A stretch of 48,392 bases of DNA, from assembly GCA_938022935.1 (NCBI GenBank), contig CALIHL010000102.1, positions 1-48,392 on the forward strand. Reading direction: 5' to 3'. How positions within the stretch are numbered: position 1 is the first letter of the stretch; each line of letters starts with the position of its first letter. Both the position numbers and the translations under genes were made by a program. The notes below the pieces were generated by a model, which was not told the DNA's origin, did no database searches, and saw only the letters and a program-made list of their open reading frames with translations. The stretch comes from an uncultured Saprospiraceae bacterium. Lineage in GTDB: Bacteria > Bacteroidota > Bacteroidia > Chitinophagales > Saprospiraceae. Shown here piece by piece: positions 43,602 through 47,323 of the stretch.

Positions 43602-45389
43602 TTACTTCTTCTTACCTCTCGCAACTTTTTTGTTATCGCGCTCTCTTTTTGTGATGCGTGCTTGTCCATTTTCAACACAGAACTGAACTAACTCGTATGT
43701 GCCGAAATATCCATCTGAACTCACGATGCTTTGACCACTGGGGTTAATCACTTTCAATCCTCCATTGCCATAGTCACAGCACATACCATCGCCATATGCA
43801 TCATAGAGGTCTATGTCGTAGCAGCCATCTGCAAGCACAACGTCTTTCGTTTTTACTTTACCTGCTTGGCCATCTGCATATGGTCCTCCTGAAGCAATCA
43901 ATTTGTTAGAGTCATCATATAAAGCCCATGATGTCTCTGATCCATAATCGTCTAAAGTGACTTTTACTTTATATGTTCCAGAGCCAGTACCACCGTTTCC
44001 TTCATCAGTATTAAGGTCAAATGTCTTTATAGAAGACCATGGTTGCCACCCGCTACTACATCTCGTTCTTATACGATATTGATATAAAGAAGCAGACAAA
44101 TTAGTCAAGGTTTTTTGAGAATTAGTAGCTACTTTTTTAGTCCATGATGAAGTTCCCTTAACTCTGTAAGCAACTTGGTATCTACTAGCATCTGTAATGT
44201 CCGCCCAATTAACTCTTACCTTTGTTGCATTCAATACTTTTACTGTCGAGGTGCTTGGTGAAGAGCAATTATCACTAGAGTCGTTATCTCCCCCTGTATC
44301 AATGTCGCCACTATTGTCTCCTCCAGTAGTATCTCCACCTCCTGTATTCCCACCCCCTGTGTTTACAGAGCCACTATATATATTGCTAACATTGGAAGTG
44401 AGTGAGCCGAGAGAAGCAGATACATAGTTAGTCATACGTGAAGCTTGACCAGCAGAGAACATATACATGCACTCATCATTGGTATAGTCCATATAGTTCA
44501 TATGCATATCCGTAGATCCACATGATGATGTACTTAAGCTTGGGCAGCCGGAATGATCTTGTGCTTGATCTGGAGTGTCGCTCACTTCATCATCTACACC
44601 ACATCCGTCTCCCCATATGTGATCTAATAATAAGTAGTGGCCCATCTCATGAGTTAGCGTACGACCAAGATTAAATGGTGATTCTGGAGCGATGTTACTA
44701 CATCCCTGACCTGAGCCAAAAGCTGAAGCGTCAATAACAACACCATCGCCATTACCTTGTCCACCCAATGGTGAGTATCCTAAAGCGCCAGTGTTGGGTT
44801 GTACATAGATGTTGACGTAGCCAGACCAGTTATCAACTTGATCTCCTTGGGTTCTGTTGACTGTTACTGCTAAGTCACCATTGTTCAAACCATAGCCACT
44901 TGGGTGATTCTGATCTGCTATAACAAACTTGAGGCATGCCTCACCATTGCTTACACCTGGGAAAGCAGAAGCAGCTTGTCCTGTCCACTTATTGATATCA
45001 CTGTTAGTACCAGCATAATCATCATTAAGTGTGTTAATCTGAGTGATTGCCAGTTGTCTTAAACAAGAGGCATCAGGGTTATTAACACCTTGGTAATGGA
45101 TCGCAACAGGTATCAAAGTTGGAGATGCACACTGTGCTTTGAAGTTTCCTCTCTCAAGATTAACTTTTTCAAATGCATCCAACATCTTCTGTTTCTTATC
45201 ACGATAAGCCGGGTCTTGCATGAGATGTTGTGTATGGTCGTGCGAAAGACAAGTACGTGTTCTCTGAGAGAATTCTTCAGATGTAATTTCGCTGACATCC
45301 AAAGGTTCAAAGTCATCATCTTGACATGAAGAAATAAGAAGAACAAAAACTAAGGCAAGTAATACTGGGAAAAGATTTTTCAATTTCAT
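43602..45389 (-). CDS. M43-like (pappalysin-type) zinc metalloprotease lipoprotein
   Basis: A 595-residue protein. The lipoprotein signal ends LLISSC with QDDD after it, the LES pattern for surface export in Bacteroidota. The peptidase domain (residues about 110-335) carries the zinc site H247-E-M-G-H251-YLLLD-H257 and the Met-turn region NYMDYTND. Next is a Gly/Asp-rich linker of TGGG-type repeats (residues about 350-375), then a fibronectin-III-like domain (about 380-465). A C-terminal domain follows (about 475-578, DDYGSETSWALYD and YGDGMCCDYG). The end is a basic tail (RERDNKKVARGKKK) instead of a T9SS sorting domain. The metzincin Gly after the second His is Leu here. It is divergent from the LytS gene at 45597. 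Confidence 0.88.
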   Translation of the reverse strand: MKLKNLFPVLLALVFVLLISSCQDDDFEPLDVSEITSEEFSQRTRTCLSHDHTQHLMQDPAYRDKKQKMLDAFEKVNLERGNFKAQCASPTLIPVAIHYQGVNNPDASCLRQLAITQINTLNDDYAGTNSDINKWTGQAASAFPGVSNGEACLKFVIADQNHPSGYGLNNGDLAVTVNRTQGDQVDNWSGYVNIYVQPNTGALGYSPLGGQGNGDGVVIDASAFGSGQGCSNIAPESPFNLGRTLTHEMGHYLLLDHIWGDGCGVDDEVSDTPDQAQDHSGCPSLSTSSCGSTDMHMNYMDYTNDECMYMFSAGQASRMTNYVSASLGSLTSNVSNIYSGSVNTGGGNTGGGDTTGGDNSGDIDTGGDNDSSDNCSSPSTSTVKVLNATKVRVNWADITDASRYQVAYRVKGTSSWTKKVATNSQKTLTNLSASLYQYRIRTRCSSGWQPWSSIKTFDLNTDEGNGGTGSGTYKVKVTLDDYGSETSWALYDDSNKLIASGGPYADGQAGKVKTKDVVLADGCYDIDLYDAYGDGMCCDYGNGGLKVINPSGQSIVSSDGYFGTYELVQFCVENGQARITKRERDNKKVARGKKK

Positions 45390-45490
45390 AACTGATAATA
45401 ATTTAGTTGTTTAACAAAAGGTAGAAAGGTGATCATCCACTCTAATTATGCCTCGAAGTAAAGGCAACTTGGACTAGTATTTCATCGGGT

Positions 45491-45576
45491 TTATACATTG
45501 AATACCCTATTTTATACTTCTTGGGGTTTTTATTATACTTCTTGATTTGACCGATGGGCATATGGATATAACTTGC
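45491..45576 (+). promoter_or_regulatory. Three 21-bp-phased repeats and a promoter upstream of the LytS/LytTR operon
   Basis: TTATACATTGAA (45491), TTATACTTCTTG (45512-45523) and the identical TTATACTTCTTG (45533-45544) recur at exactly 21 bp, the spacing of LytTR-regulator direct repeats. The last ends at 45544, one base before a -33 box TTTG (45546-45549). A -7-like TAACTTGC (45569-45576) follows after 19 bp. The start codon of the sensor gene is 21 bp further on. This is the layout of a site bound by an activator next to RNA polymerase. Confidence 0.65.
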
Positions 45577-45596
45577 AGCCATAATTACTTGGCGAC

Positions 45597-46613
45597 ATGA
45601 ACAAAAGCATAGAGGCTTTCATATTTGGTAGTGGAAAGTGGTACTGGCTTAGACACATTCTTTTTTGGACAGCGATGTACCTTGATGAAATTATGTACAT
45701 CATTTTGGCAGAGCTTGATAAAGTTGATATTGGGTTTTCTGTTCTCGGGTTCTCTCTTGATGTTATCAGTGTCTATATCATACTCACTTTCTTCTTTAAG
45801 TGGTTTTTTCTTAAGAAGCGTTACTTCACCTTTATTATAGCCATCTTCATATTAGTGTTCATCAACGTTGGTATTGGTGTCATGACCGATTACTATTTTA
45901 CAAAGGAGTTACCATACATTGAAGACTGGCTATCCGCACTCATTAACACGTTTACATTAATCTCTACTGCCGTTGGTCTTAAGATTGGCAAGCACTACTA
46001 CAAGCAACTCCAACTGACCCAAGAGTTACAATCATCACAATCAAAGCTAGAGTTGAACTCTCTGAAAGAACAGATTAATCCGCACTTCTTATTCAATGTG
46101 CTGAACACTATCAATGTCCAGTCGATGAATGACCCCGCTTCTGTATCAGATACTGTCATCAACCTTTCTGACTTGCTGAGATATCAGATATATGAAGCTG
46201 GAGCTTCAGATCTGGTGCCATTGACAAAAGAGGTCAACTTCTTAAAGAACTATCTGAACTTGGAGCAGATGAGAAGGAGTAATCTCACCATCAACTGGAA
46301 AGAGGAAGCTTCTCTTCCTAAAATGAAGATCACCCCTTTCCTATTTCTACCTCTGGTAGAGAACGCCATCAAGCACTCTATCTCTTTAGAAGAAAAAGAT
46401 TCTAATATTGATATCTCATGGCATTTTGAAAATGAGCAATTAACTTTGGAAGTGTCCAATACCATAGGGAATGGAAGCAATGGTAAAGAAGGTGGCTTTG
46501 GGATAGCAAATCTTAAAAAGCGTCTTGACCTTTTATATCCTAACAATTATAAATTGGACATGGGCTCTAACAATGGGACATTCAAAGCATCTCTTCAAAT
46601 CAATACTCAATGA
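45597..46613 (+). CDS. LytS/YehU-type sensor histidine kinase
   Basis: A 338-residue membrane histidine kinase. Four hydrophobic segments are at about 18-38, 47-75, 80-105 and 118-135, then a short coiled-coil-like link. The kinase phosphoacceptor is H163 in QINPHFLFNVLNTIN. The ATPase part has LVENAIKHSI and GGFGIANLKKRLDLLY. The usual sensory extracytoplasmic domain is missing, so the signal is perceived within or near the membrane. The gene overlaps the response regulator by 4 bp (ATGA at 46610-46613), so they form a coupled pair. Confidence 0.93.
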   Translation: MNKSIEAFIFGSGKWYWLRHILFWTAMYLDEIMYIILAELDKVDIGFSVLGFSLDVISVYIILTFFFKWFFLKKRYFTFIIAIFILVFINVGIGVMTDYYFTKELPYIEDWLSALINTFTLISTAVGLKIGKHYYKQLQLTQELQSSQSKLELNSLKEQINPHFLFNVLNTINVQSMNDPASVSDTVINLSDLLRYQIYEAGASDLVPLTKEVNFLKNYLNLEQMRRSNLTINWKEEASLPKMKITPFLFLPLVENAIKHSISLEEKDSNIDISWHFENEQLTLEVSNTIGNGSNGKEGGFGIANLKKRLDLLYPNNYKLDMGSNNGTFKASLQINTQ

Positions 46614-47323
46614 AAGCGATTATAATAGATGATGAACCAATAGCGAGACAGGGCATATCGATACTCGCCAAGCAAGTCCCCTTTCTTGAGATCTGTGGAG
46701 AGTTTGGTAATCCCTTGTTAGCACAAGAGTATATCGTAACACATCCTGACTTAGATCTAATCTTTTTAGACGTTGAGATGCCCGGCATAACAGGGATAGA
46801 TTACCTGAAAGCGATGCCTCCACATTGTCATGTGATCCTTACAACTGCTTATCAACAGTATGCACTTGATGCGTTTGAGCTGGACGTAGTGGACTATCTA
46901 TTAAAGCCTATTAGAATTGATAGATTTGCGAAAGCGGTCAGCAAAGTAAAAGAGTTACTAGCGCTACAAAAGCATGACCTCGAGATCAATGATCAAGACG
47001 ACTTCATATACATCAAGTCAGATAGGAAGTATATAAAGCTCTCCTTGAGTGATATACTTTTTATAAAAGGCTTAAAGGACTACGTCATCATCCACACGGC
47101 TAAGGAGAAGTACATGACTGCTATGAATGTTGGTACCATCAACAGACAGTTAGACGAAGCCATATTTGCAAGAGTCAGCAAGTCATACATCATCAATGTC
47201 AACTACATCAAGAATATAGATACGGATACCATCGACATAGAAAGTCATGAGATCCCATTGGGTAATACTTATAAAGACGGCTTTCTAAAAAAGTACGTCA
47301 AGAGCAACTTGTTGAAGAGATAG
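46610..47323 (+). CDS. LytTR-family response regulator
   Basis: A 237-residue response regulator. The receiver domain (residues about 1-118) has acidic residues D7-D8, the phosphoacceptor D54 in FLDVEMPG, the Thr in TTAYQQYA, and the Lys in YLLKPI. The LytTR DNA-binding domain (about 135-235) has DDFIYIKSDRKYIKLSLSDI, the TAMNVGTINRQLDE block and VSKSYIINVNYIKNID. It should bind direct repeats spaced about two helical turns; such repeats occur just upstream of its own operon at 45491-45544. The neighbouring M43 protease gene is divergent and could be a second target. Confidence 0.93.
   Translation: MKAIIIDDEPIARQGISILAKQVPFLEICGEFGNPLLAQEYIVTHPDLDLIFLDVEMPGITGIDYLKAMPPHCHVILTTAYQQYALDAFELDVVDYLLKPIRIDRFAKAVSKVKELLALQKHDLEINDQDDFIYIKSDRKYIKLSLSDILFIKGLKDYVIIHTAKEKYMTAMNVGTINRQLDEAIFARVSKSYIINVNYIKNIDTDTIDIESHEIPLGNTYKDGFLKKYVKSNLLKR

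Follow-up and report, generated by a model that had tools for sequence, protein, structure and literature searches.

The window analysed here is a 48,392-nt stretch (contig CALIHL010000102.1) of the draft genome of an uncultured Saprospiraceae bacterium (4.06 Mb, 84% complete). It contains a LytS/LytTR two-component operon whose upstream region carries an array of three TTATAC direct repeats. The first gene of the operon encodes a sensor histidine kinase with a PF06580 domain. The second gene overlaps it by 4 nt and encodes a response regulator with receiver and LytTR domains, which is 74-76% identical across the genus. A gene for a peptidase of family M43 diverges from the operon; this protein has both a match to PF05572 and the HExxH motif, with Leu at the position where metzincins usually have Gly. 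The array lies within the 207-bp intergenic region between the M43 gene (45389) and lytS (45597). Start codons and operon ends were taken from open reading frames. No signal-peptide processing or export gene is found in or directly beside the operon (its neighbours are the protease gene and ftsH), peptides of fewer than 60 codons not being excluded, and no additional gene is constantly present beside the operon in relatives.

The three copies of TTATAC begin at 45491, 45512 and 45533. Their period is exactly 21 bp, equal to two helix turns, and copies 2 and 3 are identical over 12 bp (TTATACTTCTTG). An earlier note on this DNA, made without database searches, had described these repeats together with a TTTG that starts 1 bp beyond the third copy and is followed after 19 bp by TAACTTGC; each of these elements is present in the sequence. 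The note had also stated that LytTR regulators bind direct repeats about 21 bp apart. This is consistent with known LytTR sites, which consist of two repeats of 9-11 nt lying 11-13 nt apart and share no common consensus (PMC4847170). The array is thus composed of direct repeats with a start-to-start distance in the 20-24 bp range, upstream of a promoter. Within the intergenic segment of the window, no other spacing of triple repeats scores as high as 21 bp, and the observed score was matched by 0/400 dinucleotide shuffles, whether or not the motif was named. Because TTATAC-like words are frequent in the genome and relaxed pair patterns show no overall enrichment, the repeats could be viewed as a chance feature of an A+T-rich intergenic region. 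This explanation is opposed by the shuffles, by conservation in orthologues and by a paralogue control (both described below); it is refuted by the conservation across genera and was rejected as vanishingly improbable.

The array recurs across the family Saprospiraceae and is not a product of chance. A first set of 12 Saprospiraceae units was obtained with LytS orthologues found by protein search only. Three of these are from the same genus (LytS 49-52% identical) and the others range down to 32% identity. All 12 units have a divergent M43-type gene, and the downstream gene varies between genera. The triplet is present in all 12 orthologous intergenic regions, in a degraded form in G042. When spacings are scored by motif, 21 bp alone ranks first in 11 of the 12, and it alone ranks first in these 11 under a motif-free test as well; dinucleotide shuffles reached the observed score in 0/400 cases in those 11 orthologues and in 3/400 cases in G042. 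The two best pair-pattern matches of the G083 genome (of which L085 is the public copy) both lie at the orthologous site.

When 298 family genomes were searched with a profile, about 63 matches lay above a score gap (roughly >=348 bits versus <=324). At 40 further orthologous loci, an exact TTATA[CG] pair is found at 21 bp in 30 and at 22 bp in 10, and there are almost no other spacings except the sums 41-43. Three copies with at least 16/18 matches are present in 35 of the 40 when steps of 20-22 bp are allowed (spacings 22/21 in 19 loci, 21/21 in 14 and 21/20 in 2). As a control, 20 paralogous LytS operons were taken from the group below the gap, and none of them has a TTATA[CG] pair at spacings between 10 and 45 bp. 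These counts come from related orthologues and so do not represent independent events; the intergenic DNA is nonetheless far diverged. The earlier note had stated that its proposal would be refuted if relatives lacked the 21-bp pattern ahead of the orthologous operon; the pattern is present there, both within the genus and family-wide. A locus at the top of the lower-scoring group, L402 (G158:C341), is a divergent M43/LytS unit with three copies of TTACAC at 21 bp. Here the word is changed and the spacing kept, and this locus may allow study of LytTR specificity.

Promoter positions relative to the array are also conserved. In Flavobacterium psychrophilum, -7 boxes of the types TAnnTTTG and TAnnTTGY have been mapped at -12 to -5 (PMC9723704). 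A box of this Bacteroidota type (TAnnTTTG, or TAnnTTGY in this genus) lies 36-37 bp after the start of copy 3 in 27/28 units, and matches are rare at other offsets on the lytS side, except for offset 3, which is within the repeat. The claim that the array adjoins the LytS promoter is supported by this box. If the box placement of F. psychrophilum is assumed, transcription starts are predicted near 45581 (+) and 45449 (-). The -33 element is poor, with TTTG found anywhere in its window in 10/27 units. The TTTG that had been proposed as a -33 box is therefore present but weakly conserved, and it was rejected as a defining element. Given this weak conservation, the lytS promoter probably depends on an activator, and its geometry agrees with activation from a site whose end lies near -37. 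Canonical sigma-70 promoters were also rejected, as the hexamers found by scanning overlap the repeats and their enrichment is not clear. The lytS -7 box is of the TAnnTTGY type in this genus and in two other genomes (window 45569-45576, L085, L078, L079, L082 and L088); in most of the remaining genomes it is TAnnTTTG. In F. psychrophilum, TAnnTTGY is known as motif SM5, which has been attributed to an alternative sigma factor and occurs at genes for amino-acid scavenging (PMC9723704).

The same geometry bears on the sign of regulation. The regulator could act as a repressor, blocking RNA polymerase at both promoters until a signal arrives: the sign is not fixed by geometry alone, and 1 bp separates copy 3 from the candidate -33 box. 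However, the proximal copy is near -48 to -37, upstream of the core promoter rather than over it, a poor -33 element is expected of activator-dependent promoters, and repeats of this kind serve AgrA and HdrR as sites of activation (PMC4227749, PMC6193735). Repression is accordingly considered quite unlikely.

On the opposite strand, a TAnnTTTG-like box is found 34-35 bp from copy 1 in 22/35 arrays and in no more than 2 at any other offset. This conserved second box favours the suggestion, also made in the earlier note, that the same site could serve the divergent M43 gene. Orthologues of the same genus have TTCTTTTG, TTGATTTG and TTCATTTG (TTnnTTTG) at this position. In the window, the promoter cores TAACTTGCAGCCATAATTA and TTACTTCGAGGCATAATTA are identical at 15/19 nt, a likeness that supports the assignment of the protease-side promoter. 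The repeats are therefore located between divergent promoters with their own sigma boxes at fixed distances, the protease-side box of the window being weak. Both cores end in CATAATTA at the predicted start, and CATAATTA recurs at a similar position ahead of the array-linked peptidase genes of L213 and L250.

Table 1. Positions of genes, repeats and predicted promoter elements in the window.
Feature	Position	Strand	Description	Basis
M43 (pappalysin-type) zinc metallopeptidase	43602-45389	-	Lipoprotein signal (..LLISSC-QDDD); HEMGHYLLLDH	Pfam PF05572, 2.2e-13
Protease promoter, 19-nt core and start region	45443-45461	-	TTACTTCGAGGCATAATTA	Inverted repeat relative to lytS core
Candidate -7 box, divergent protease promoter	45454-45461	-	TTACTTCG	Offset 35 from reverse complement of repeat 1; off-consensus
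Repeat 1	45491-45498	+	TTATACAT; proximal to protease gene	Sequence; position conserved in orthologues
Repeat 2	45512-45523	+	TTATACTTCTTG	Sequence
Repeat 3	45533-45544	+	TTATACTTCTTG; proximal to lytS, about -48 to -37 from predicted start	Sequence; fixed promoter distance
Candidate -33 box, lytS operon	45546-45549	+	TTTG	Sequence; weakly conserved
-7 box, lytS-lytTR promoter	45569-45576	+	TAACTTGC; TAnnTTGY type	Orthologue position and sequence conservation
lytS promoter core	45569-45587	+	TAACTTGCAGCCATAATTA	15/19 identical to protease core
LytS-type sensor histidine kinase	45597-46613	+		Pfam PF06580, 2.6e-24; orthologues
LytTR response regulator	46610-47323	+	Proposed to bind the array	Pfam PF00072, 2e-16; PF04397, 1.3e-16

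Divergent peptidase genes are common at these loci. An adjacent divergent HExxH gene is found in 25 of the 32 further orthologues with a readable neighbour, and 21 of these 25 encode a lipobox. The lipobox is often followed by acidic residues, which suggests that the divergent peptidases are surface-exposed, as is generally understood from lipoprotein export in Bacteroidota. The M43 peptidases of the array units have the motif HExGHYxxL[DE]H, with Leu, Phe or Asn at the usual Gly of the metzincin motif HExxHxxGxxH. The divergent gene of one unit, L241, codes for a trypsin-like protein with a type IX secretion system (T9SS) tail.

In the 4.06 Mb draft, exact TTATAC-N15-TTATAC is found at only four places: the window array (two overlapping pairs), a triplet at C18:6431-6478 and two intragenic spots (C34:5044 and C68:2845), which were set aside as regulon sites because of their intragenic location. 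Exact triplets occur at only two places in the genome, both intergenic and both upstream of peptidase genes; the second, at C18, is upstream of a gene for a reprolysin-like (M12B) peptidase. The earlier note had proposed that a genome search for pairs at 21 bp would define the regulon. Exact pairs did reveal the C18 array, but the mismatch-tolerant pattern shows no genome-wide excess over a reversed control and was rejected as a regulon finder. The one-mismatch pairs examined in this genome are mostly intragenic. Taken with the lack of excess over the control, this makes the regulon of the source genome look small. The reprolysin paralogues within the genus have no array.

The family genomes were also searched with the triplet DNA pattern alone, and the matches read in detail were chosen by sequence, blind to their neighbours. 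Among the exact non-tandem triplet matches listed, 14/18 flank a LytS/LytTR operon. For arrays without an adjacent lytS, HExxH is encoded by 9/18 of the genes that diverge opposite the TTATAC strand within 400 bp (one of these, L263, probably represents a unit truncated at a contig end) and by 0/11 of the genes on the other side. Neighbours of lone arrays belong by Pfam to M12B reprolysin (C18 of the source genome and L275) and M43 (L213), with Peptidase_Mx/Mx1 matches at sub-threshold scores in L209, L210, L246, L250 and L253, and a trypsin-like peptidase without HExxH in L252. The numbers behind this association are modest and the Pfam scores partly weak. Because lone arrays adjoin peptidase genes without LytS, the protease side is no less informative than the LytS side. 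Minisatellites of 21 bp in G056, G137 and G150 also fit the array pattern and were set aside as ordinary tandem repeats; at L205 (G056:C110:12059-12400), about sixteen tandem units of TTATACTTTTGATAGTCCGCA lie between convergent genes.

These associations are difficult to reconcile with pure autoregulation, in which the LytTR site would act on the lytS operon alone and the divergent protease gene would be coincidental. The LytS-side -7 box is indeed the better conserved (27/28) and the protease-side box of the window is weak, and a few orthologues (such as L197 and L251) keep the array and LytS without a divergent peptidase. Nevertheless, the frequency of adjacent divergent HExxH genes, the second -7 box conserved at 34-35 bp and the constant side on which lone arrays adjoin peptidase genes all argue against an action restricted to lytS, which is unlikely.

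The array also appears to be specific to one regulator. The source genome encodes 22 LytTR domains, and a TTATA[CG] pair is present at none of its other LytTR operons with a readable start. Another LytS/LytTR operon of this genome (L328, G000:C122:22500-29500) has a perfect 10-bp direct repeat, ATTCAACGAC, upstream at 21 bp, which is perhaps the operator of that operon. As the other operons lack the TTATA[CG] pair and one has a 21-bp repeat of its own, the TTATAC array behaves like a word particular to its regulator, placed on a spacing that is family-wide. Repeats at 21 bp are also seen at distant LytS operons, of the TTATACCAA type in Mucilaginibacter gossypiicola (L098) and as ATCTGCAAA in Draconibacterium and Prolixibacteraceae (L119 and L129). 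A different regulator might bind the array, or the repeats might be tandem sigma-factor boxes, given that TATACTTTTG resembles TAnnTTTG and that some repeats match the -7 consensus at offset 3. Both possibilities are very unlikely, however: the array tracks the LytS/LytTR clade (triplet in 35/40 orthologues, pair in 0/20 paralogues), separate well-conserved -7 boxes lie outside it, and its period of 21-22 bp is that of LytTR sites.

Three known systems are comparable to the window unit. At agr P2/P3 of Staphylococcus aureus, a LytTR regulator, AgrA, binds direct repeats between divergent promoters and activates P2 and P3, driving its own operon on one side and an effector on the other (PMC4227749). 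However, the window has one shared triplet where agr has separate repeat pairs, its effector is a surface peptidase rather than a regulatory RNA, its kinase is of the LytS type and its sigma boxes are of the Bacteroidota type. Among genes of 60 codons or more, the operon also lacks the autoinducer peptide gene and processing/export protein of an agr-type system. The unit is described as agr P2/P3-like in its working but, since its triplet is shared and signal-peptide machinery cannot be recognised in it, is not classified as agr. The LytTR Regulatory Systems (HdrRM, BrsRM and similar operons of Bacteroides) include Bacteroides examples with a TATCTTTG -7 box, and autoactivation through LytTR direct repeats has been demonstrated experimentally for HdrR of Streptococcus mutans (PMC6193735). 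Those systems pair a LytTR regulator with a membrane inhibitor and have two repeats with other words, whereas the window encodes a kinase and a response regulator and has three repeats. YpdA/YpdB of Escherichia coli is likewise a LytS-type kinase with a LytTR response regulator, and YpdB binds the direct repeat GGCATTTCAT cooperatively in the yhjX promoter (PMC4847170). YpdB has two sites at one promoter, with no divergent protease gene.

The array, its spacing and conservation, the fixed promoter geometry and the gene associations are observed directly, and from them we infer protein binding, activation rather than repression, dependence on phosphorylation, and a signal. The three repeats are very likely a LytTR-regulator array common to both divergent promoters, providing autoactivation and control of a peptidase regulon in a manner similar to agr P2/P3. 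LytS would phosphorylate the LytTR regulator encoded at 46610-47323, which would then bind the three in-phase TTATAC copies on one helix face at their 21-bp period and recruit RNA polymerase to the two promoters. The promoter with the -7 box at 45569-45576 would drive lytS-lytTR, and that with the -7 box near 45454-45461 would drive the M43 surface lipoprotein metallopeptidase. At the C18:6431-6478 array, the same regulator would switch on the secreted reprolysin-like (M12B) peptidase. The suggestion in the earlier note that the array is an autoactivation site is strengthened by its family-wide conservation and promoter geometry, which mark it as a putative binding site. Several points weigh against this model. 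The protease-side box of the window, TTACTTCG, is off-consensus (4/6 positions), and a few orthologues have a degraded triplet or a missing box. For the C18 array, the orthologous copy, 82% identical, is cut off at a contig end, and one array-linked gene (L245) encodes a DUF1800 protein, which is no known peptidase. The motif is also unlike the LytTR words described to date; the family has no common consensus, however.

Saprospiraceae are abundant degraders of polymers in activated sludge and the sea, and the literature searched contains no mention of LytTR together with Saprospiraceae. The window holds a probable LytTR operator in which three in-phase copies, rather than the usual two repeats, would be common to two promoters. 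Across the family, the regulator appears to govern a small regulon made up of peptidases that are secreted or at the surface. A further proposal, about as likely as not, is that a single LytTR regulator commands secreted and surface peptidases of unrelated catalytic families (M43, M12B, Mx and trypsin-like) from three-copy arrays with a fixed orientation towards the peptidase gene; the sensor may then sense products or substrates of proteolysis, giving positive feedback for protein scavenging. As a regulator-specific DNA signature, the array locates the operon and its candidate targets by sequence alone, and control of extracellular proteolysis in Saprospiraceae thereby becomes directly testable.
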